From positions 43,834,881 through 43,898,880 of the forward strand of contig NC_060252.1 of the NCBI RefSeq assembly GCF_921293095.1: a stretch of DNA of 64,000 nt, read 5' to 3'. The position numbers were made by a program, and so were the translations under genes. Shown piece after piece: positions 3,341 through 57,880 of the stretch (positions are counted from its first letter, which is position 1; every line of letters starts with the position of its first letter). The DNA is from Ischnura elegans. Taxonomy: Eukaryota > Arthropoda > Insecta > Odonata > Coenagrionidae. The notes beneath the pieces are model-generated. The model saw only the letters and a list, made by a program, of their open reading frames with translations. It was not told where the DNA came from and did no database searches.

Positions 3341-4055
3341 TTAACCCTTTCACTGCTGTGAACGTACAGGGTACGTTTGCACAGCAGGCTGTTGCGAACA
3401 TACTTTTTCTTCCTCCCGGCCAGGCACTTTGAAGGGTCCCTAATCCGGGACCTTTCCTCGATGAGCTCACCCTCGCTGGCCCCTCTCTTTGACCCTCCGT
3501 GATGGTCTTGGGGTCTTGAGATTGGGGGTCTTCCTCCCCAAAAGTGACCGCTCTGACAGCATTTTGAAAATCTATCAATCAATGTGATGATCAAAAAATG
3601 ATTGTTTGTATTGCATTCCTGCCAATCAGGCAATCAAGTACATCTTTGAACCATGTTTTGGCCAATGGCCAATTTCCGGTGGTCCGCAGCCACGTTTTTA
3701 GCATAGTTAATAAAATCGTTATTTTTCATCGCAGAAATACGGTTCAAATATGTACTTGATTGGCAGGAGTGCGATGCAAACAATCATTTTTGGACGATCG
3801 GATTGATTGGTTGATTTTCAAATTGCAGTCAGAGCGGTCACTTTTCGGGAGGGAGGCTTCCCGCTCGGAGGGTCCAAGAGACTATGACTACCGAGGGTGA
3901 GCTCGTCGAGGACAGGGTCCCGGATTTGTGGCCTTGGTGTACCACGCCCATCCTGCTGGAAGTACCTGCTCCATGGCCCAACCAAAGGCATTTTAACCTT
4001 TTCGCCACATGTGAGGAGAAGGTTTTTGGAGATTGAACAGCAGTGAAAGGGTTAA
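3341..4055. mobile_element. piggyBac-type fold-back (non-autonomous) element with TTAA duplications
   Basis: TTAA occurs at 3341..3344 and 4052..4055 and brackets a 707-bp element. Its 15-bp termini are perfect inverted repeats (CCCTTTCACTGCTGT and its complement), and the CCC start plus TTAA target are diagnostic of piggyBac-type transposons. A subterminal CTGCTGTG/CACAGCAG palindrome follows the left TIR. Long imperfect inverted arms continue inward: the stretch around 3550..3660 is the reverse complement of about 3735..3845, including a shared TTGATTGGCAG/CTGCCAATCA-type core. The element would therefore fold into a long hairpin. No transposase is present, and the open frames inside are products of the arms, not genes. 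Confidence 0.75.
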
Positions 4056-6666
4056 GTAGAGTAGGGCACCACTCTGCAGTGGATAGCTGGCCACCAGAAG
4101 ACCGAACGGCTTTATCACTCGAATATTCCTGTATCCGTGATTGAACGTTTGAATGAATTGATTCAATCGGGTGTATACTTAAAATAACTTTCCATTCTAT
4201 GAGATTTAATTCACCAAACATTTCACATTTCTTGTGTGTGCTGAAAAGTCTCCTTAAAATATTCATTAAACCAATGTTGGCTGGATTTCATGCTTTCAGT
4301 GAGACAAATTATGCATGCTTTAAAATGACTTAAGTCACTACACAAGCAAATGAAAATAGCCGCTAATTCATTTCTCTGCAAAACTTTCCTCATATGTACT
4401 TCTATAAAGCAAAGATTCCTCATATGCTGGACAGCTTTTTTAGAATGATATTCCAAAAAAGTCTAGGGGCTTGGAGAAAAAAATGCTATCTAACCCTCTT
4501 GCCACCCCTGTGCTGCCAAGGATTGTTCCAATGATCTTTTCAACACACCGTAGACATAGATATGATGGGATGAAGAGGGGCAAATTCATCTCCCAGGTCA
4601 CTGAGGGTACGCGTATCTTACAATTTATATTACAAAAATGGCTTTGATGGGAGTTCAGTGCACTCCCGTAACCAGCAATTTTAGAAACAAGAAGATCTGA
4701 TGGATATGTACTTGTGTTTTTGCCAGTTTTTTGGTACCTACCCTTACAATTGCTATGTAATGACTCAGGTAAGGATTGACATTTACATGATACAGTTTCC
4801 ATTAATTCAATACATTCTGGGAGGAAAATAAGCAATTACATCATTCGGAGGTCACATCATACAGGTAAAAGATGAATTAGTACTGGAAATATAAAAGTTG
4901 GCAACAAAGATCGTAGTTAATTAAAAAAAAAATTCTGCTTGGATTTATGGAAATTCATTAAACATGGAAGGCACTACGCACACATTTTTGAAAATGTATC
5001 AGCCCATGAATATTGCTGATGTTAAGTAGAATAATCTTTGTAATACACAACATTTTTACTATCTACAATAAAATGTGGAAAGAATGTAATGATTACTCAT
5101 TCTAAGGCTAGCCATAGATATGCTTTTTAGATGAAATAATACCTCTGGAGGATATTCTATGGCACAATTGAAGACCAAATAAGGCAACATGATACATATT
5201 TGCTTTTTAATTATAAAAATCGACTAATCATTCCCATGAAACTTAACCCATGTAACATACCATGAATATTTATTAGGAGGATTGGGATAAAGAAACTACA
5301 AACTTCATAAAATGGTAAGCAGTGAACTTAATCGGTGAAGTGCCCTTGGCCTAGTGAATGTAAATACATATGTACAAAGAACTGAAAATTAAAGAATGAG
5401 ATTTATCAAAGTTAAGTATCAAAAACTTGGAAGGCTGACTTTCTAGAAGTGATAATTGACCTGTTGTTTAGTCTGGGATGAACTCTACCATTCCTGGTCC
5501 AAACCAGCCTTCGATCAAATCAAATCATGAGTTAGTGAGCAGTAATTAACACTTACTTAAATGTGCATTAATATGAAAACATTTCAGATTCCCCCATTGA
5601 AACTTTCCACATGAGGTAAACCGCCCTAAAAATATGTATGATTAAAAAATTATATTTACTTTCGAATACAAAGCAGAAAAAAAGTTTTTTCAGTGATACA
5701 AAATTACTCTTTTATTACTTGGTATTACATACAGGAAAAATATATTGTTTCAATACCTGAGAGGCCAAATGGCACATATATGTCATATTACCTACAGTGT
5801 GATGAATTATGATTTTCTTTGAGGTACTGATCTTAAATATATATATGTCCTAATGTTTTCTCAGAATTACTCACATAATAATCAACACTGTAGATTCCAC
5901 TATACCACATTCTTAACCACTGGGGCCAAAAAATGATTTAGGAACTTCAGCTGCCATTTGAATTATTCCAAGTGGATAAAATATTTTAGCCTCCTTCATT
6001 CTGAAAAACGATAAGCTTTCACTCATCCTGAAAACATTAACTCCAGGAATAAAGGATAACCATAAAATCTCAAAATAACATCTATTCACCTGGCACAGAC
6101 TGGTAATTTACACCTACTGTGCAACGTTACGTTGTTTACACTATAATTTAACTTTATCTGATAGCTAGGTTTTCATACTTATTGCCTCTTGCTAGTAATT
6201 GGGAAAATAGGTATGATGATTTATACAAAAATCACCTCACTTTTTTCCACTCAATCAAATCGATCGCAGCATGAGATGGAAGTCAGTGGCGACCAGGTTT
6301 GTCATGGGAGATCATGTTCCATTAATTCACCAAAAGATATGTTTTATAGATAAAAGTTCTAAGCTATGGAAAAGGCCAGAACTACTGACCCTAAACACTT
6401 TATCAAAATATGTCTTGTACAATAAATGTCACATTCAGTGAATATATATTCAACAGAAACTAAAACTCTTAGCTGATAATAATGATGCCCAAAGAAATAT
6501 TCCATACTTATAAATGAAAGGTTTCAGGATTCACTTATCCCCTTCATAGGCTGCAAGGTATGTATTATGTAGGTATATAATATTGTACGAGAAAATTCAA
6601 TGTGATAAGAAAAAAGGAGAGGTATTTATTTAAAGAAGTAAATAACCAAAGGCAAATTATTCATAC
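4056..6666. other. Intergenic, no gene recognised
   Basis: This stretch is AT-rich with no domain-bearing frame. A minus-strand frame near 4440..4835 is open for about 130 codons but has no recognisable motif. A minus-strand frame ending at a TAA near 5470 reads GWFGPGMVEFIPD and looks like a possible short terminal exon, but I could not connect it to anything. Confidence 0.35.
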
Positions 6667-43200: not shown

Positions 43201-43504
43201 AAACGACGCAAAGGATGCGTCGAACGCAACGAGAAGTAGTGCTACGGCGCGGCGTTCAGGAGCATGAGAGGCACCTATTTACTAACTCGCATTCCTCGCA
43301 GCCGTATGGAAACGTATAACGAACAGACAAACAGACATCATCTTTTAAATATATAGAAGACTATTTTCTCACACGTAATTTTTTAATATTAGAGTTACAG
43401 GAAAATGTCGAACAGGGTCTACTCTTGATTGTTTCTGGCTTTACTTTGTGAAAATCCATTCTTAATAATAAAACGTTATTGTACTTTTCCACACGATTTA
43501 ATTA

Positions 43505-43544
43505 ATACGACCGGTTTCGTCGCAGAGGCGACATCATCAGGTAC
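43505..43544 (-). ncRNA. Compact hammerhead ribozyme motif (PLE inverted copy)
   Basis: The reverse complement is identical to the other two motifs. It lies just beyond the stop of the minus-strand copy, in that copy's terminal repeat. Confidence 0.8.
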
Positions 43545-43579
43545 AGAATCCGTTATAATAACAGTTATTTTGTTCTTGT

Positions 43580-45902
43580 TTATCTGGTTGCTATTACGTT
43601 GGTAGGGGAGGGTTGCGTTGGGGTTGGAGCGTCACTCAGCTTCAGGGGAATCTCCAAGAGCGGGGAATAGTTTACAAAAATATTTTCATTTGCTAAAATT
43701 CCATTTTTTATATGCTTCCTTATCTCCAACTCCTCCAAGCAGTCCATCCTTCTTCCCTTTCCCTCAAGGTGGAGAATTTCCGGAACAAAATTGCTCCTGT
43801 GGTCACTCTCCCATAGATGTTTCGCAAAATGCGATTTTTCTAATTCCCCGTTTCTCAAATGCCTTCCATGTTCCTCTGCTCTTACTCGGAACGAACGTCC
43901 AGTCTGGCCTATGTAATAGGTCTCACAGTCACTGCACTTGAGTCTGTAAATGCCACTTCTATCATTTAAGTCAATTTTATCTTTTGTATTGCATAATAAC
44001 GCCCTTAAATTAGATGTGTTATAATATGCTATTTTAAAGTCTTCTCTGGGAAAAAGGTTTGCGGTTGCCTGTGAAATATTTCCATAATAACTCAGTTTGC
44101 ACCAGCGTTTCTTATGCTCATTATGAATGGATGAATGGTATATCATTTTCTGTGCCCGGAGGGAGTATTTCTTCCTTAACAATTTATCTATTACACTTTC
44201 TTCGTATCTGTTTTTAACTGCAATGTTTTTGATGGTTTTGATTTCCATGGCGAGGTTCTCGGCAGATAGGGGGATGTTGAGCGCTCTGTTTAACATGGCA
44301 TGAAAGGCGGCTAGCTTATGAGAGGGGTGGTGGCGGGAGTCGGAGGGGATGACATGGTCGGTGGTAGTCTCTTTCCTGTAGATTTTGAAGTCGTAGCCTT
44401 TTTCCGAGGTTGAAATAGTGATATCGAGAAAGTTGATACTATGGTTGGATCCTTTTTCACATGAGAACTTTATGTTTTTGGCTTGTGTATTCAGTTTATT
44501 CAAAAATATGTCCAGTTGCCTCATAGTACCAGTCCATATGGCAAACACATCGTCAACGTACCTGTACCAGCAATGGATAAAATTGGTGTTCACTGAATCT
44601 TCACTGAAAATTTTTTCTTCAAACTTGTCCATATATAGTTCCGCTAAAAGCGGCGATAGCGGAGACCCCATTGCCAAACCTTCTTTCTGTCTGTAGAATT
44701 TGTTATTAAATTTAAAATAATTCTCTTCCACACACACTGTCAGCAATTTCACAAAATCGTCGAGGAAGGGTGGATCGGCTCCGGCTTTCCTCAGTGTTTC
44801 TTCTGCTATTTTAACAGCCTCGGAAATTGGAATGTTAGTGAATAAATCTTTCACGTCGAAGGATACTAACGTATGTTTGGATGGCGGGGGCTCTCTTTGG
44901 GTGAGAAGACGGCACAGTGCAGTTGAGTTATTCACCCCGTATCTTGGCTTGAATCCGGTGAATTCTCTGAAGATTGAATTGAGGTGGGAGGCTAGTTTTC
45001 TTGATGGTGCAGCAACACTTGAGACTACGGGTCTGATTGGAATGTTTGTTTTGTGTAACTTTGGAAGACCAAAAAATCTTGGTGCCTGCGGGTTCATCAC
45101 TGTTACTTTGTACATCTCATTTGTTTTAATGATACTTGGGGCAGAATTTAGGGCTTTTTTCAGCAACTTCTGAAATTTGTATGTTGGGTCATTAGGTAGT
45201 TCCACTACAGGGTTGTTCTCAATGAAATCGTTGCACTTTTTCGCGTACTCAACTTTGCCCATCACAACAACTGCGTTGCCTTTGTCCGCTTTCTCAATAA
45301 TTAAATTTTCTTCCCTTAACAGTTTTTGGACGGATTTCAAGGGTTTCAAGTCACTGGAAAATTGTTTTGCTGTGGGGTTAATTCTCTTAATTGCATTGGA
45401 AATTTTATGAGAGAACACTGATTTATGTCCCCTGTTGCTATTAAATAGGGCTGCGTCGCAGTCTATGATTAAGTTTTCAAGCTCTCTTTTGCCTATGGGA
45501 AGGTCGGGAACGTATTTAAATCCTTTTTCCAGGAGTTGGATCTCTTGCTCATTAAGTTCAACGTTAGATAAATTAACTACTCTGTTATAAAAACAGTTGG
45601 CTGGTACATCTATACGGGGCTTTTGTGGTGGAACATGGTTGTCTTCTGTGAGATTCTTCAATTTATTCATTAACACCAACCTTTTCTTGTGCGCAATTTC
45701 GCTGCTTCGTTGGCGAACGTAGTCGTCAAAAATGGTCCATTCCGTCCAACTTAGTTCCCTGCAGAGATCCAGGTGTAGACGGAATCTATATTGGGCGATG
45801 CTGTCCCTCTTCATGTACCAGCTCTGGAGTTCCTTCCTTATCCATGTCCTGCGTGCCGTCTCTAGAGCTATCTTGGCTGCTGGAGACTTGGAGGCGGTGG
45901 TT
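43580..45902 (-). pseudogene. Inverted, 5'-truncated copy of the PLE ORF
   Basis: The minus-strand frame matches the full ORF from about residue 59 (TTASKSPAAK) to the stop at 43580 with no residue difference visible. Its first 58 residues and start codon are missing. Upstream, the frame runs into the junction with the opposite-strand 3' fragment (GLERHSASGESPRAG), which is antisense repeat sequence, not protein of the element. It retains all RT and GIY-YIG motifs, but its promoter-proximal end is lost. Confidence 0.88.
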
Positions 45903-46179: not shown

Positions 46180-48675
46180 ATGGATTTTCACAAAGTAAAG
46201 CCAGAAACAATCAAGTTTATTGAAAACGCCAGTACAGCAAAGAAGGCTAAACTCTACCGGACCTTGACTATAAAATACAGAGTGGCATCTTTAAACATTT
46301 ACTTTAATAGTAGATGCCTTGCTCTGGGTTTGACACCGAAGTATGTGACATTAACCACCGCCTCCAAGTCTCCAGCAGCCAAGATAGCTCTAGAGACGGC
46401 ACGCAGGACATGGATAAGGAAGGAACTCCAGAGCTGGTACATGAAGAGGGACAGCATCGCCCAATATAGATTCCGTCTACACCTGGATCTCTGCAGGGAA
46501 CTAAGTTGGACGGAATGGACCATTTTTGACGACTACGTTCGCCAACGAAGCAGCGAAATTGCGCACAAGAAAAGGTTGGTGTTAATGAATAAATTGAAGA
46601 ATCTCACAGAAGACAACCATGTTCCACCACAAAAGCCCCGTATAGATGTACCAGCCAACTGTTTTTATAACAGAGTAGTTAATTTATCTAACGTTGAACT
46701 TAATGAGCAAGAGATCCAACTCCTGGAAAAAGGATTTAAATACGTTCCCGACCTTCCCATAGGCAAAAGAGAGCTTGAAAACTTAATCATAGACTGCGAC
46801 GCAGCCCTATTTAATAGCAACAGGGGACATAAATCAGTGTTCTCTCATAAAATTTCCAATGCAATTAAGAGAATTAACCCCACAGCAAAACAATTTTCCA
46901 GTGACTTGAAACCCTTGAAATCCGTCCAAAAACTGTTAAGGGAAGAAAATTTAATTATTGAGAAAGCGGACAAAGGCAACGCAGTTGTTGTGATGGGCAA
47001 AGTTGAGTACGCGAAAAAGTGCAACGATTTCATTGAGAACAACCCTGTAGTGGAACTACCTAATGACCCAACATACAAATTTCAGAAGTTGCTGAAAAAA
47101 GCCCTAAATTCTGCCCCAAGTATCATTAAAACAAATGAGATGTACAAAGTAACAGTGATGAACCCGCAGGCACCAAGATTTTTTGGTCTTCCAAAGTTAC
47201 ACAAAACAAACATTCCAATCAGACCCGTAGTCTCAAGTGTTGCTGCACCATCAAGAAAACTAGCCTCCCACCTCAATTCAATCTTCAGAGAATTCACCGG
47301 ATTCAAGCCAAGATACGGGGTGAATAACTCAACTGCACTGTGCCGTCTTCTCACCCAAAGAGAGCCCCCGCCATCCAAACATACGTTAGTATCCTTCGAC
47401 GTGAAAGATTTATTCACTAACATTCCAATTTCCGAGGCTGTTAAAATAGCAGAAGAAACACTGAGGAAAGCCGGAGCCGATCCACCCTTCCTCGACGATT
47501 TTGTGAAATTGCTGACAGTGTGTGTGGAAGAGAATTATTTTAAATTTAATAACAAATTCTACAGACAGAAAGAAGGTTTGGCAATGGGGTCTCCGCTATC
47601 GCCGCTTTTAGCGGAACTATATATGGACAAGTTTGAAGAAAAAATTTTCAGTGAAGATTCAGTGAACACCAATTTTATCCATTGCTGGTACAGGTACGTT
47701 GACGATGTGTTTGCCATATGGACTGGTACTATGAGGCAACTGGACATATTTTTGAATAAACTGAATACACAAGCCAAAAACATAAAGTTCTCATGTGAAA
47801 AAGGATCCAACCATAGTATCAACTTTCTCGATATCACTATTTCAACCTCGGAAAAAGGCTACGACTTCAAAATCTACAGGAAAGAGACTACCACCGACCA
47901 TGTCATCCCCTCCGACTCCCGCCACCACCCCTCTCATAAGCTAGCCGCCTTTCATGCCATGTTAAACAGAGCGCTCAACATCCCCCTATCTGCCGAGAAC
48001 CTCGCCATGGAAATCAAAACCATCAAAAACATTGCAGTTAAAAACAGATACGAAGAAAGTGTAATAGATAAATTGTTAAGGAAGAAATACTCCCTCCGGG
48101 CACAGAAAATGATATACCATTCATCCATTCATAATGAGCATAAGAAACGCTGGTGCAAACTGAGTTATTATGGAAATATTTCACAGGCAACCGCAAACCT
48201 TTTTCCCAGAGAAGACTTTAAAATAGCATATTATAACACATCTAATTTAAGGGCGTTATTATGCAATACAAAAGATAAAATTGACTTAAATGATAGAAGT
48301 GGCATTTACAGACTCAAGTGCAGTGACTGTGAGACCTATTACATAGGCCAGACTGGACGTTCGTTCCGAGTAAGAGCAGAGGAACATGGAAGGCATTTGA
48401 GAAACGGGGAATTAGAAAAATCGCATTTTGCGAAACATCTATGGGAGAGTGACCACAGGAGCAATTTTGTTCCGGAAATTCTCCACCTTGAGGGAAAGGG
48501 AAGAAGGATGGACTGCTTGGAGGAGTTGGAGATAAGGAAGCATATAAAAAATGGAATTTTAGCAAATGAAAATATTTTTGTAAACTATTCCCCGCTCTTG
48601 GAGATTCCCCTGAAGCTGAGTGACGCTCCAACCCCAACGCAACCCTCCCCTACCAACGTAATAGCAACCAGATAA
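46180..48675 (+). CDS. Penelope-like element polyprotein: reverse transcriptase plus GIY-YIG endonuclease, 831 aa, intact
   Basis: The first ATG after the terminal repeat (46180, MDFHKVKPETIKF) is chosen; upstream in-frame codons belong to the repeat. The order is: an N-terminal helical region; EKADKGNAVVV at about 262-272; DVKDLFTNIPI at about 407-417; GSPLSPLLAELYMD from about 470; the catalytic YVDD at 506-509; then a C-terminal GIY-YIG nuclease with GIY at 708-710, CSDC between, and YIG at 721-723, followed by a histidine-containing stretch (HFAKHLWESDH). This is the EN-plus PLE architecture: the nuclease nicks target DNA and the RT primes cDNA there. No stop or frameshift interrupts the frame, so it may still be active. 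Confidence 0.93.
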   Translation: MDFHKVKPETIKFIENASTAKKAKLYRTLTIKYRVASLNIYFNSRCLALGLTPKYVTLTTASKSPAAKIALETARRTWIRKELQSWYMKRDSIAQYRFRLHLDLCRELSWTEWTIFDDYVRQRSSEIAHKKRLVLMNKLKNLTEDNHVPPQKPRIDVPANCFYNRVVNLSNVELNEQEIQLLEKGFKYVPDLPIGKRELENLIIDCDAALFNSNRGHKSVFSHKISNAIKRINPTAKQFSSDLKPLKSVQKLLREENLIIEKADKGNAVVVMGKVEYAKKCNDFIENNPVVELPNDPTYKFQKLLKKALNSAPSIIKTNEMYKVTVMNPQAPRFFGLPKLHKTNIPIRPVVSSVAAPSRKLASHLNSIFREFTGFKPRYGVNNSTALCRLLTQREPPPSKHTLVSFDVKDLFTNIPISEAVKIAEETLRKAGADPPFLDDFVKLLTVCVEENYFKFNNKFYRQKEGLAMGSPLSPLLAELYMDKFEEKIFSEDSVNTNFIHCWYRYVDDVFAIWTGTMRQLDIFLNKLNTQAKNIKFSCEKGSNHSINFLDITISTSEKGYDFKIYRKETTTDHVIPSDSRHHPSHKLAAFHAMLNRALNIPLSAENLAMEIKTIKNIAVKNRYEESVIDKLLRKKYSLRAQKMIYHSSIHNEHKKRWCKLSYYGNISQATANLFPREDFKIAYYNTSNLRALLCNTKDKIDLNDRSGIYRLKCSDCETYYIGQTGRSFRVRAEEHGRHLRNGELEKSHFAKHLWESDHRSNFVPEILHLEGKGRRMDCLEELEIRKHIKNGILANENIFVNYSPLLEIPLKLSDAPTPTQPSPTNVIATR

Positions 48676-48710
48676 ACAAGAACAAAATAACTGTTATTAT
48701 AACGGATTCT

Positions 48711-48750
48711 GTACCTGATGATGTCGCCTCTGCGACGAAACCGGTCGTAT
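48711..48750 (+). ncRNA. Compact hammerhead ribozyme motif (PLE right repeat)
   Basis: Sequence identical to the motif at 46095, with the predicted cleavage after 48746, exactly 2,616 bases downstream. Cleavage at both would release one unit-length RNA running from repeat to repeat across the ORF. Confidence 0.8.
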
Positions 48751-48804
48751 TAATTAAATCGTGTGGAAAAGTACAATAACGTTTTATTATTAAGGGTCTA
48801 CTCT

Positions 48805-53638: not shown

Positions 53639-53643
53639 CGCCG

Positions 53644-53678
53644 CACAGTGGGGCCAAATTCGGAGAAAGTCGGCAAAA
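53644..53678 (+). repeat. Left recombination-signal-like terminus of the Transib-type element
   Basis: CACAGTG heptamer, 23-base spacer starting GGGCCAAATTCGG, then CAAAATATC in the nonamer position. Adjacent to the CGCCG target duplication. Confidence 0.85.
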
Positions 53679-54132
53679 TATCAAGGACTTGTCTGATTTG
53701 CATAAAAATTCATCTGATTGCATATTATGGGCTGGTTATTAGGAATATGCAATAAAATTTTAAGAAAAAGAAAAGCGGGAAAATAAAAAACAAATTAAAT
53801 AAATTGCATTGAACTTTTAATTGTTTTTTTACTGAGAACGGAAATAATATCATATAATAACCTTGAGAAAAACACGTAGACGTATATAATCACATTTATA
53901 TGTTTATAAATTTTATAAATATTGTTTTACAAGACAATTAATAGTTTAAGATATAAAAATTCAACTTCCAATATAGCTTTCACTACATAAATTTCAAGTA
54001 AAATATCAAATCAATCACTTCTTAATACAGATAATACTCTTTTTCTAAATAAATTCTAATATTAACAAGTTAAACGCTAAACAAATTCTTAAATATGTAT
54101 CAGAAAAAAATTTGATTCACTTTGAATTTTTA

Positions 54133-56336
54133 TTAATCGTTGTCTTCGCTTTCACTGTCCGTTGTAGATCTACTAACACTCTGAAAAAGAGCGCAGACAT
54201 CCGGTTTTAGACTTCCATTCTTTCTCGGAGGTAATGGCCGCAAGGATGAGATAAGTGGATCTGGCGATACCATTAAAATTTTGAAAAGATCTCTATTAGT
54301 ATCTTCTCTGGAGGTTTTTCTGCATTTTTTTTCCCGGAATCTCCTGAAATCTTTATTGCGCGCCTCCATAGCCTCTTCACTTAACATTCTTATGGGAAGA
54401 AGTGCAACTGCTATTACATCCGAACCATGAATTAATATTCGGTGAACTGATGCGGGCATTGGATACCATGGGTAGAGATAGTGCCTAGCTGTATGAATTG
54501 CATACTCTTGGAATGCTTGCAAATAAACAGCGTACCCACAGGAAAATGCAGCCTACAGTACCACAGGAGAGAGTTCGTAGGATTTTGTCACACCGGCTAA
54601 TTAGTTCCTCATCTAATTCAGTTACTGCGGCTGACTTTGAAGCGTTCAGGAAGAAACGACGCGCAGTATTTCCGTCGTTACTATTGCCGCTCCTTGCTTG
54701 ACGATGTCTACTAGAAGACCCATCTCAGACTTGAACTTTTTTTGAATTTCAATTTTCCTTCTCTGTATTAGATCTTTAGTATCTGTAGTTTTTTTCCATT
54801 CTAGAGTCTCTAACCGGTAGCTTACGTGTAAAAGCCATTCAAAGAATCGCATATAGGCATGGAGAGTTGAAAGTCCATATCGAAACGATTCTGTATTAAC
54901 TCCCCTTTCCAGAACTTTGTCGATGATGTTCATTTCCCGGGAGAGTGCGCCACAAAGGCAGCACCGTTGAGACGAAGTGTGTGTAATGGCGTTGCACACC
55001 TTACCGTCAATCATTGACATTATCATTGTATGGCGTACTTGAATAGGACCACAACTCGGTATGACAACATTCGAAGGTTCTAATCTATCAATTTGTGTCT
55101 GAACGTTTTGCTGTTCATAAAGTATTGTTTCCTTATTTTCTTTTTTAAACTCTAGCTTATAAATCCTGCAATACCTTGTAGATGAAGGGCGAACATTCTG
55201 CCACACCACTACCTTTGCACTATTGTCTTCTTTGTAGTACAACTGAAGAGGGACGACACGCGTCATTATAAGATCACTGTCGATAAAGTTGTCTTTAGAG
55301 ACCTGTTTTTACATAGATTGGGAGCTGCTACCATCAAGCCCCCACTCGCAGATCAAATGTAAATTTTGGAGAACGATGGGAGAAAGGGGCTCCATAACGT
55401 CCGCTTGCAGCATGGCGATTCTGGAAACAGTTATGTCAAGTAAGGCCTGTACGTTAACTTCAGCCTTACGTTCAGTGATTATGACCGCAGTGTTGCACGG
55501 ATAACACTTCTGTTTGGCTAAAAGGACCTTCTTATAAGAGGGATATAAATCTGATCCCCTTTCTATCGCCTGCGATCGTAAGGTTTGATATGATTTGTGA
55601 GACAAATCGGCTTCAATCATGAGAGAAAGGGCTTCTTCAGGGGAGTATGAATGGATGAACTTAACTCTCTTTCGACTGAGACTTTTTCCAAGCATCTGCT
55701 ATTTTTGATGCTCGAGTGGGGGTAGACTGAAGAGCCTCTTTCACCAGTCCAGCCTCTGCATCCCTGCCTTGAGCACGGAGAGCCCTTTCGGTCGCAAACG
55801 TTAGGGCCGGTGTACTCGTAGTTGCCGTCATTTCCTCCACCATTCTCATCTTACTGCGGTAGCTACTCTCCTCAAAGCCTCTTCTTGGCCGACCGCTGCC
55901 TGCAAAAATGTAATCAGCAATTTGATTGAATATACAAATACATTATAGTGTGCAACAGTACAAGTAATATGTCGATCAAAATATTTTAATTAGAATGTAA
56001 ATACAAAATTATTACGTTGAAAATATTATAAATACCTGAAGTTTTTGTGGTCGTTTTTGTAGTTCCAGGAATATTGATCACAATTTTCGCATCCAGCCAA
56101 TCTCCATGGTAGCGAAGAAAGTCTTTTTCAATGCGGTGAGATTCCATCCATTTCTTTCGCACTTCCCCACAAAGCCGCCGCACCGTCCTTTTCATTTTCT
56201 CCTCTATCACATTGTCTTTGGGAAAACCAAATACTTCATTCAAGTGAAGATATACACGCTGGTAACGTTCTTTCCATGGAAGATGTTTTTCCGTCATCAA
56301 CAGCTTATATAACTCATGCCTCGATATCGTTAACAT
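54133..56336 (-). pseudogene. RAG1-core/Transib-like DDE transposase, two exons, broken
   Basis: Exon 1 is 56036..56336 (ATG at 56336, MLTISRHELYKLLMTEK). A 136-bp GT-AG intron (55900..56035) follows, then exon 2 from 55899, joined in phase through TSGSGRPRRGFEESS. Catalytic residues survive in order: D in WGLDGSSS (55333..55335), D in MIDGKV (55006..55008) and E in SEEAMEARNKDF (54364..54366). The D-D spacing of about 109 residues is close to that of RAG1. Zinc-site residues also match: CCLC (about 54952..54963) and H-x4-H in VHRILIH (54427..54444). Breaks: a frameshift near 55670, an in-frame TAA at 55309..55311, and two offsetting shifts near 54670 and 54540, the latter beside a short duplication of TCCTGTGG. 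The C-terminus is acidic (TTDSESEDND). Confidence 0.85.
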
Positions 56337-56995
56337 AACCACGAGCACGTTTTAGAACACCGGAGAACCCTACTACCACTGGCCCTATCTCAATCACCAT
56401 CGAAAAAGTAATGGACAAAATCTTCTCGGTGGCGATATGTGAGAGGTTTTGTTGCTTCCTATACCGCGGCGCGCGCCGCGGAGCGCTTACCAAAGTAATA
56501 CATAGTTGCACTCTAAAGCAATTATCTCAAAAACCTGCGCGAACCAGCACCCAATTTTTTTCTGGCACTTTGAGCACATAACAAACATTTGATTCAAAGT
56601 AATACATCGATCCGACATCGTTAGACATTTTTTGTAGCTCAAGTGACATTTTGTGTTACTCTGAAAATTTTAGCACATGTTATGAAGGCCCTAAAAATGA
56701 CTTCTTCTAGAAGTACTAGGGCCTGATATTTAAAGGTAGTGATCATCAAGTATTGGTTATCTCGTGGAGAGAAACACTTTTTGCTGGTACTTAGCAGTGG
56801 CCGTGAAGAACTTGACGAATGAAACCAAAATCTGCGCGTGCTGGCGATGCATTTCTGCATCACTCATGTTTGTAGGGTTGCTGTCTCTACATCAATGATT
56901 GAAACGGAAATATTTCTTCAGATTCCATTGCTCCTGACATTATAATACCCAACAAAAAATATTTAAATAAAATCCGGACATTATGAATTTTAGGG

Positions 56996-57030
56996 TTTTG
57001 GCAGACCAAAACGGTTTTCGCCCCACTGTG
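56996..57030 (-). repeat. Right recombination-signal-like terminus of the Transib-type element
   Basis: Read on the minus strand: CACAGTG, 23-base spacer starting GGGCGAAAACCG, then CAAAACCCT. Starting one base earlier it reads CCAAAACCC, which matches seven of nine positions of the vertebrate nonamer ACAAAAACC. Confidence 0.85.
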
Positions 57031-57110
57031 CGCCGCCCTCAACCGTGCCCAGACCAATCCTTTGACCCTCAAAACCGCCGCTACGTGATATTCTCGTTTG
57101 ATGATCCCGC

Positions 57111-57880
57111 CCGAAAATCATCCCGAGAACACACAGAATGGTCACCCAATTCCCTCAGCCAAAATCGTTGGATATAACGTGGAGAAAACATTGTTCAATG
57201 CGAAAAATGATCAAGTACTTAACGGGGAAAACAGCTGGATAAAGTGTTCTCTGTTTTCCAACCGGGTGAAAGAGTTCATCATGTTCCACGCTTCAAGGTA
57301 CCGAAAAGTCGGCCAAGCACACAGAATAGTCATCCTGCCCCACAGCCAAAATTATTGTCTGCAATACAGAGAAAGCATGTGAAAAATGATCAGGTACTTA
57401 CCCGGAAAATTAACTGGATAAAGTATTATCTGGTTTCCAATCGGGTGGAATGCATATGAGACGCTTCTAGGAACCGAAAAGTCGGCCAAGCACACAGAAT
57501 AGTATTCCTGCCCCACAGCCAAAATAATTGTCTGCAATACAGAGAAAGCATGTGAAAAATGATCAGGTACTTACCCGGAAAATTAACTGGATAAGGTGTT
57601 ATCTGGTTTCCAAGCGGGTGGAACGTATATGAGACGCTTCTAGTAACTGAAAAGTCGGCCATGCACACAGAATGGCTCCCCTCTTCCCTGAGACAAAATC
57701 GTTGGGTTTAATGTGAAGAAAACGTTGTACAATGTGAAGAAAGATCAGTTGCTTCCCGGGGAATTCTCTGGTTAAAGTATTGTCAGGTTTCCAACCGGAT
57801 GAGAGAGTTTGACGCGAGTTGTCCGACGCTTCGAGGTATCGAAAACTCGACCATCACGGAGCACGGAATGACATGCGAGG
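57111..57880. repeat. Satellite-like tandem repeat, 173-bp period, about 4.5 units
   Basis: GAAAAGTCGGCCAAGCACAC-type text recurs near 57304, 57477 and 57650, exactly 173 bases apart. More diverged outer units start near 57111 and 57841, with longer spacing (about 190). Each unit also holds aaaaatgatca(a/g)gtactta, actggataaagt and ttccaa(c/t/g)cgggtg. The two central units are the most alike, as expected for recent unequal exchange in the middle of an array. Confidence 0.85.

Follow-up and report, generated by a model that had tools for sequence, protein, structure and literature searches.

Zero-loop palindromes at damaged copies of a Transib family in Ischnura elegans, probable scars of RAG-type flank hairpins

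Introduction

Transib transposons in general have CAC-type heptamer ends and make 5-bp target duplications (portions of PMC8289069 and PMC7204232), and their ends carry symmetric spacers of 20–22 bp, with 12/23 asymmetry in a few families (passages of PMC8355894). According to part of PMC6941560, both RAG and HzTransib, a Helicoverpa zea transposase with the catalytic triad D126, D225 and E436, nick DNA at the heptamer and close the flanking end into a hairpin, and the HzTransib hairpin was obtained in vitro. Here we describe a Transib element found in a 64,000-nucleotide stretch of the Ischnura elegans genome (contig NC_060252.1; hereafter the window), together with its relatives elsewhere in that genome, which measures 1.72 Gb. 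The element itself is an ordinary one, a further family of a well-known superfamily; what deserves following up is the hairpin-like scars in its broken relatives. Damaged copies carry zero-loop palindromes. Judged from the assembled sequence, these are very probably P-nucleotide scars left by RAG-type hairpins in the flank, and aborted gap repair most likely fixed them.

HzTransib (the 6pqn series of structures) has a transposase homologous to that of the Ischnura family over chain residues 8–458, with the same catalytic triad, and shares with it a single gene without RAG2, CAC-type ends and 5-bp duplications; the hairpin step described above for HzTransib would be a further likeness. The Ischnura family is nevertheless separate and divergent, with dozens of copies that record repair junctions, and its ends diverge beyond 11 bp, whereas those of HzTransib are called symmetric in the available part of PMC8289069. 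The ProtoRAG or RAG-like (RAGL) elements of amphioxus have a RAG1-related transposase, CAC ends and GC-biased 5-bp duplications (portions of PMC8289069 and PMC7204232), but no RAG2-like gene was found in the Ischnura element and its match to amphioxus RAG1L is only weak. V(D)J recombination, carried out by RAG1/RAG2 at recombination signal sequences (RSS), has in common with it the heptamer CACAGTG, cleavage at the heptamer boundary and P-nucleotide-like palindromes on the flank side of joints; in contrast, the Ischnura element has no 12/23 asymmetry, a weak nonamer and no RAG2, and its joints retain transposon sequence, unlike coding joints. Excision of hAT elements leaves palindromic footprints, with 8-bp duplications and an offset palindrome centre. 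The hAT transposase is a different one, and in Ischnura the palindrome centre lies at offset 0 from the transposon end. Flank-hairpin excision would be shared with hAT elements such as Hermes and Ac/Ds, Hermes being grouped with RAG in part of PMC6941560.

Palindromes at damaged Transib copies

DNA searches of the genome gave at least 55 matches to the element (the best 40 of 88 candidates scored), and pattern scans allowing up to 3 mismatches found at least 41 left ends and at least 44 right ends. The fetched loci were sorted into 31 two-ended copies, 10 copies with only the left end and 13 with only the right. Inverted terminal heptamers of the CAC type are a family property: CACAGTG is present at both ends in 28 of the 31 two-ended copies. 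An identical 5-bp duplication, GC-rich as is usual for Transib, begins exactly at the heptamer in 27 of the 31, and 24 of these are CGNCG (CGCCG 10, CGGCG 5, CGTCG 5, CGACG 4; the others are CGGCC, CCCCG and CTCCG, 1 each). Such agreement of ends and duplications over 28 and 27 copies is more than chance. The four exceptions are L015, whose left end is damaged; L016, which is mismatched; L023, whose heptamer lacks two bases and whose duplication, by eye, is CGTGG; and L041, an old copy with one mismatch. L035 and L037 have flanks in common at 99.5% and were counted as one insertion. Among the collected loci, paralogous empty sites with the target present once were found for six insertions, at identities of 94% (L014), 78% (L035), 90% (L039), 77% (L040), 84% (L042) and 99% (L049), those of L014 and L039 having one mismatch in the target. 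The first-pass annotation had proposed that the window element is complete at its CACAGTG sites and had suggested looking for further copies and empty sites; further copies were found, as were empty sites for the six insertions named above, and the ends of the other genome copies coincide with those sites.

The 23 one-ended copies retain either the left end (L027, L028, L030, L042, L044, L047–L051) or the right end (L045, L046, L054–L064). At the truncated side, 11 of the 23 still show the target duplication, that of L064 having one mismatch, and in 10 (L028, L044, L046, L048, L051, L056, L057, L059, L060 and L063) no recognisable duplication is present within the 120 bp searched. The 11 readable junctions, together with the damaged left end of the two-ended L015, make up a set of 12; L050 and L062 were left out. 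At each junction we took the point where the target duplication meets the element-side sequence as centre and measured the palindrome arm with zero loop. The arms are 20 nt in L030, 11 in L015, 7 in L042 and L049, 6 in L045, 4 in L058 and L061, 3 in L064, 2 in L047 and L054, 1 in L027 and 0 in L055, so that 7 of the 12 junctions have arms of 4–20 nt and 5 have arms of at least 6. The L030 junction reads ...TTCGGAGGGTTGAGGCGAGG|CCTCG CCTCAACCCTCCGAA... and that of L015 reads ...TTTAAAAGGCCG|CGGCCTTTTAA|CAGTGGGG. Where the arm reaches at least 2 nt, moving the centre by as much as 12 bases gives no longer arm, with one tie, in L047 at +12. The element has lost between 2 bp (L015, from the heptamer, beside the 11-nt palindrome) and about 3 kb (L049) at these junctions, and the flank duplication is kept. 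Filler sequence in L030 repeats adjacent element sequence (by eye). L058, L061 and L064, with arms of 4, 4 and 3 nt, were fetched after the idea of palindromes had arisen. The single-base arm of L027 is part of its own intact heptamer; use of a cryptic internal end in this copy was considered and rejected. Only the heptamer is kept before the right duplication, which is read as an internal deletion with short microhomology.

An ordinary Transib family could in principle show such palindromes by chance, or because its targets were already palindromic. CGNCG targets are nearly palindromic themselves, and GC-rich flanks raise the number of chance matches. As controls we took pentamers of the same kinds wherever else they occur in the window and the loci, 2304 distinct sites without the junctions. 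Arms of at least 4 nt were present in 16 of these, at least 5 in 6 and at least 6 in none, compared with 7 and 5 of the 12 junctions for thresholds of 4 and 6 (Fisher p = 2.7e-12 and 1.4e-12, respectively). In an earlier version of the control, from which the junctions had not been excluded, arms of at least 6 nt occurred at damaged junctions only (7/1883). When the flanks of six damaged copies were rejoined, the arm was 0 nt at the 5′ edge of the target in all six and 0–2 nt at the 3′ edge, and by eye no palindrome is seen in the real empty sites for L042 or L049. It follows that the palindromes were added only once the element had inserted, and pre-existing target palindromes were rejected as their source. 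The arms are found at one duplication, on the side that faces the element, and the 20-nt zero-loop palindrome of L030 cannot arise from a CGNCG core. One short junction alone could be chance; the junction set as a whole speaks against it, and we regard chance or palindromic targets as a very improbable explanation.

Origin of the palindromes

The family, its ends, duplications and empty sites, and the palindromes themselves are directly visible in the sequences; from them we infer that hairpins made by the transposase are the source of the palindromes and that gap repair produced the truncations. The DDE transposase, RAG1-core-like and with no RAG2 found, cuts exactly at CACAGTG and inserts the element into GC-rich CGNCG sites with duplication of 5 bp, as the copies and empty sites show. 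Excision in the Ischnura family would leave the flank sealed as a hairpin with its tip at the boundary between heptamer and flank. The host would then open the hairpin off-centre, so that self-complementary P nucleotides remain; opening away from the tip would yield a zero-loop palindrome centred exactly on that boundary, which is where those of the damaged junctions lie. Repair would often recopy the element from the sister chromatid from one side and stop early, and the truncated copy would be joined to the other flank. The expected product is a one-ended copy that keeps both target duplications whole and whose joint carries a zero-loop palindrome.

The gap-repair part of this scheme, as the source of the truncations, has one main competitor, which accepts the same hairpin step. 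After cleavage at a single end a V(D)J-like joint, open-and-shut or hybrid, could form, in which the hairpin is opened and the resected end of the same transposon is religated, with no sister-templated repair. It predicts the same flank palindromes, and L015, lacking only 2 bp of heptamer beside its 11-nt palindrome, is in its favour. On the other hand, one-ended copies have lost hundreds to thousands of bp while the readable flank duplication is whole, and L030 contains templated filler. Such large losses at one end, with the duplication kept, and the filler fit interrupted copying better, and aborted sister-templated gap repair is therefore preferred; the open-and-shut route is unlikely, though still to be taken seriously. 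The filler of L030 and a deletion shared by L031–L040, which keeps both ends and is joined at a 2-bp microhomology (by eye), also support gap repair. An explanation that dispenses with the transposase hairpin altogether is fold-back (snap-back) synthesis at broken ends during alternative end joining. End-joining polymerases can generate inverted repeats at breaks, and templated filler accompanies the palindrome in L030; snap-back synthesis, however, requires a loop of a few bases, whereas the palindromes found have no loop and are centred exactly on the cleavage boundary. We consider fold-back synthesis improbable.

Several observations weigh against hairpin opening followed by gap repair as an account of these copies. 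L055 and L027 have no P nucleotides and two more of the 12 junctions have only 2 nt; one or two bases of the 7-nt arms of L042 and L049 may belong to the element; and L064 is the weakest junction, its mismatched duplication having been accepted when the palindrome was already known. Two further damaged ends with readable duplications, outside the 12-junction count, have arms of at most 1 nt by eye: L023, which has lost 2 bp of heptamer, and the right end of L046, which has an extra G. The 12 junctions are themselves a subset, with 10 of the 23 one-ended copies lacking a readable duplication and L050 and L062 left out. A single family in a single genome supplied all the events, and the sequence is that of an assembly, in which errors at palindromes are possible. 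No complete excision footprint (duplication, P nucleotides, duplication, without the element) was found, no genome-wide search having been made for one.

The genome was scanned for signal joints, as GCCCCACTGTG and CACAGTGGGGC separated by 0–20 bases without mismatch. No pair had 0–4 bases between; a single site, seen on both strands, had CGGTG (5 bases) between the termini. At L068 88–114 (C1:168500212–168500238), two Transib-like termini, outside the collected lists of left and right ends, point towards each other with one 5-bp CGGTG between them, and in one of these termini 23 bases are followed by ACAAAAGTA, which matches the vertebrate nonamer at 6/9 at exactly 23. L068 was rejected as a signal joint and is read as two abutting insertions.

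We think it probable that these junctions are a natural in vivo record of a host opening and joining RAG-type hairpins, in which Transib excision scars keep P nucleotides as long as 20 nt. If so, the coding-end half of V(D)J joining, that is flank hairpin, off-centre opening, P nucleotides and end joining, would already act, in natural hosts and without RAG2, on ordinary Transibs. The damaged relatives thus matter more than the element, as natural-genome sequence evidence for flank-hairpin formation, the step by which Transib is linked to RAG. Zero-loop palindromes at the joints of truncated copies would be a simple survey for any genome and would open the way to asking which openers act on hairpins in such hosts, what length their P nucleotides reach and whether RAG2 came later than this half of V(D)J joining. 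Among the open-licence titles and abstract openings listed, part of them from searches without a Transib focus, there was no report of such Transib scars, which does not establish priority.

The window element and its transposase

The window element is a full-length, inactivated copy of a recently active Transib cut-and-paste family (Table 1). Read directly, it has CACAGTG inverted at both termini between perfect CGCCG duplications, as the first-pass annotation had claimed. Its left end is CACAGTG GGGCCAAATTCGGAGAAAGTCGG CAAAATATCA and its right end, as reverse complement, CACAGTG GGGCGAAAACCGTTTTGGTCTGC CAAAACCCTA; from these sequences a CAAAA motif starts exactly 23 bases internal to the heptamer at both ends, again as annotated. 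The two ends are identical over their first 11 bases, and 23 of 40 positions agree. The vertebrate RSS nonamer consensus, ACAAAAACC, was used as scoring reference. The right end matches it at 7/9 with a spacer of 21 or 22 and at 4/9 with 23, and the left end at 5/9 at best, so that the annotated resemblance of the right end to the nonamer holds at 21–22 and not at 23. Of the 23-type spacing proposed for both ends, the CAAAA positions and the lack of 12/23 asymmetry stand, but the right nonamer scores best at 21–22. The likeness to a 23-spacer nonamer is weak: at this spacer the right end scores 4/9 and the left 5/9, below a V(D)J RSS nonamer, and with CAAAA at 23 in both ends there is no 12/23 asymmetry. 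No empty site of the window copy was found among the collected loci compared.

Table 1. Features of the Transib element and its immediate flanks (window coordinates)
Feature	Position	Strand	Basis
Left target-site duplication CGCCG	53639..53643	.	direct reading
Transib element, 3387 bp	53644..57030	- (transposase strand)	direct reading; genome copies; protein family by PDB chain matches
Left terminal heptamer CACAGTG	53644..53650	+	direct reading
Left CAAAA motif, 23-bp spacing, weak nonamer likeness 5/9	53674..53682	+	end comparison
C-terminal transposase fragment; H-x4-H 54427-54444; catalytic E codon 54364-54366	54133..54522	-	aligned to HzTransib via open copy L028
Transposase fragment; second catalytic D codon 55006-55008; CxxC 54952-54963	54646..55266	-	6pqn, E 2.7e-34
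Transposase fragment; first catalytic D codon 55333-55335	55309..55695	-	equivalent L028 part aligned to 6pqn
Segment absent from 10-copy deletion subfamily L031-L040	55524..55928	.	copy comparison
Candidate 136-bp intron GTATTT...TTGCAG, predicted only	55900..56035	-	sequence reading
120-aa open frame, possibly N-terminal exon; no Pfam match	55986..56348	-	open reading frame list, Pfam scan
Right CAAAA motif, 23-bp spacing	56992..57000	-	end comparison
Right terminal heptamer, CACTGTG on + strand	57024..57030	-	direct reading
Right target-site duplication CGCCG	57031..57035	.	direct reading

In the window copy the catalytic D, D and E codons lie in three separate open frames, and the transposase is therefore broken. 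A Pfam scan of the transposase gave no significant match, and the family assignment is based on comparison with PDB chains. A 206-aa piece from the window matched the HzTransib chain 6pqn with E 2.7e-34, and the 514-aa open frame of another copy, L028, matched chain residues 8–458 with E 2.6e-116. HzTransib D126, D225 and E436 correspond to chain positions 109, 208 and 419, a constant offset of 17 in hand-counted positions, and align to D136, D245 and E453 of L028. The annotated minus-strand, RAG1-like DDE transposase is thus present, although split in the window, its D–D spacing of about 109 is exactly 109 in L028, and the zinc ligands CxxC and H-x4-H that accompany the Transib triad are present, as annotated. 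Apart from four minus-strand frames, no open frame of at least 80 aa lies wholly within the element, and by Pfam none of the frames scanned has a RAG2-like domain, as expected of a single-gene Transib and of an element annotated as RAG-family without RAG2. A RAG2 profile found 0 matches over the whole genome; it also found 0 in control genomes, so that this search shows little.

The element might alternatively be a RAG-like (ProtoRAG/RAGL) element that has lost RAG2. The L028 frame does match amphioxus RAG1L (6b40), weakly but really, with E 2.4e-6. The HzTransib match, however, is stronger by about 110 orders of magnitude in E-value, and the open reading frame list and Pfam show neither a RAG2-like domain nor a convergent RAG1L–RAG2L pair in the element, nor any further frame of at least 80 aa wholly inside it. 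Membership of the RAG2/ProtoRAG group was rejected on these grounds, and loss of RAG2 from such an element is extremely improbable. At the level of protein comparison the element is a Transib, and the Transib/RAG1 relationship is confirmed; with Transib similarity found, and with copy ends coinciding with CACAGTG, the annotation of a RAG1/Transib-like transposon holds.

Copy identity and mobility

In a comparison of 30 copies, seven (L011, L013, L014 and L016–L019; 3362–3363 bp) were 99.88–100% identical to their nearest relative although they lie in different places, which indicates recent movement. In the deletion subfamily, 8 of the 10 copies (L032–L039) were 99.80–99.97% identical to the nearest relative, with L031 at 98.95% and L040 at 98.78%; the window copy was at 98.30%. 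Exact D, D and E motifs were found in one open frame in only 2 of the 36 left-end copies scanned (L028 and L029), a scan that copies with substitutions in the motifs would escape. The seven near-identical copies have the D/D/E motifs in separate frames, and their recent movement was therefore probably in trans. Most copies look non-autonomous, and 31 two-ended and 23 one-ended copies give unusual statistical power; according to the available part of PMC4411706, autonomous Transibs typically occur once or in a few copies at most.

Other observations

The left flank of L020 and the flanks of L014 share the target motif GACCTGAAGACGCCGGTTG of a repeated sequence, which is also present inverted nearby, and this target is a possible insertion hotspot. 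At the inner junction of L061/L067 a flanking CGCCG abuts the apparent end of another Transib family (CACAGTG, 23 bases, CAAAAGACA); the joint suggests insertion into the target duplication of an earlier element. L029 contains an insertion of 1136 bp (3346–4481) that runs from CCCTCTCC to GGAGAGGG between two TTTTAA and, from its termini, looks like a piggyBac-type TTAA element. Protein searches of the genome gave at least 157 Transib-like matches (150 of 1146 candidates scored); among those listed are groups about 38–49% identical to the window protein and some open frames of 500–700 aa, and several lie near chromosome ends.

Degenerate tandem-like repeats with units of about 180–300 bp adjoin the element on the right (window 57198–57853). 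Elsewhere in the window an inverted repeat of 2442 bp has arms that are 100% identical (43461–45902 and 46353–48794), about 450 bp apart, with an RVT_1 reverse-transcriptase open frame on each side; either a LINE-like element was duplicated in inverted orientation very recently or the palindrome stems from the assembly. The assembly showed no arthropod-type telomere repeats, (TTAGG)6 being present once in the genome, inside a contig (C6:60955455–60955484).

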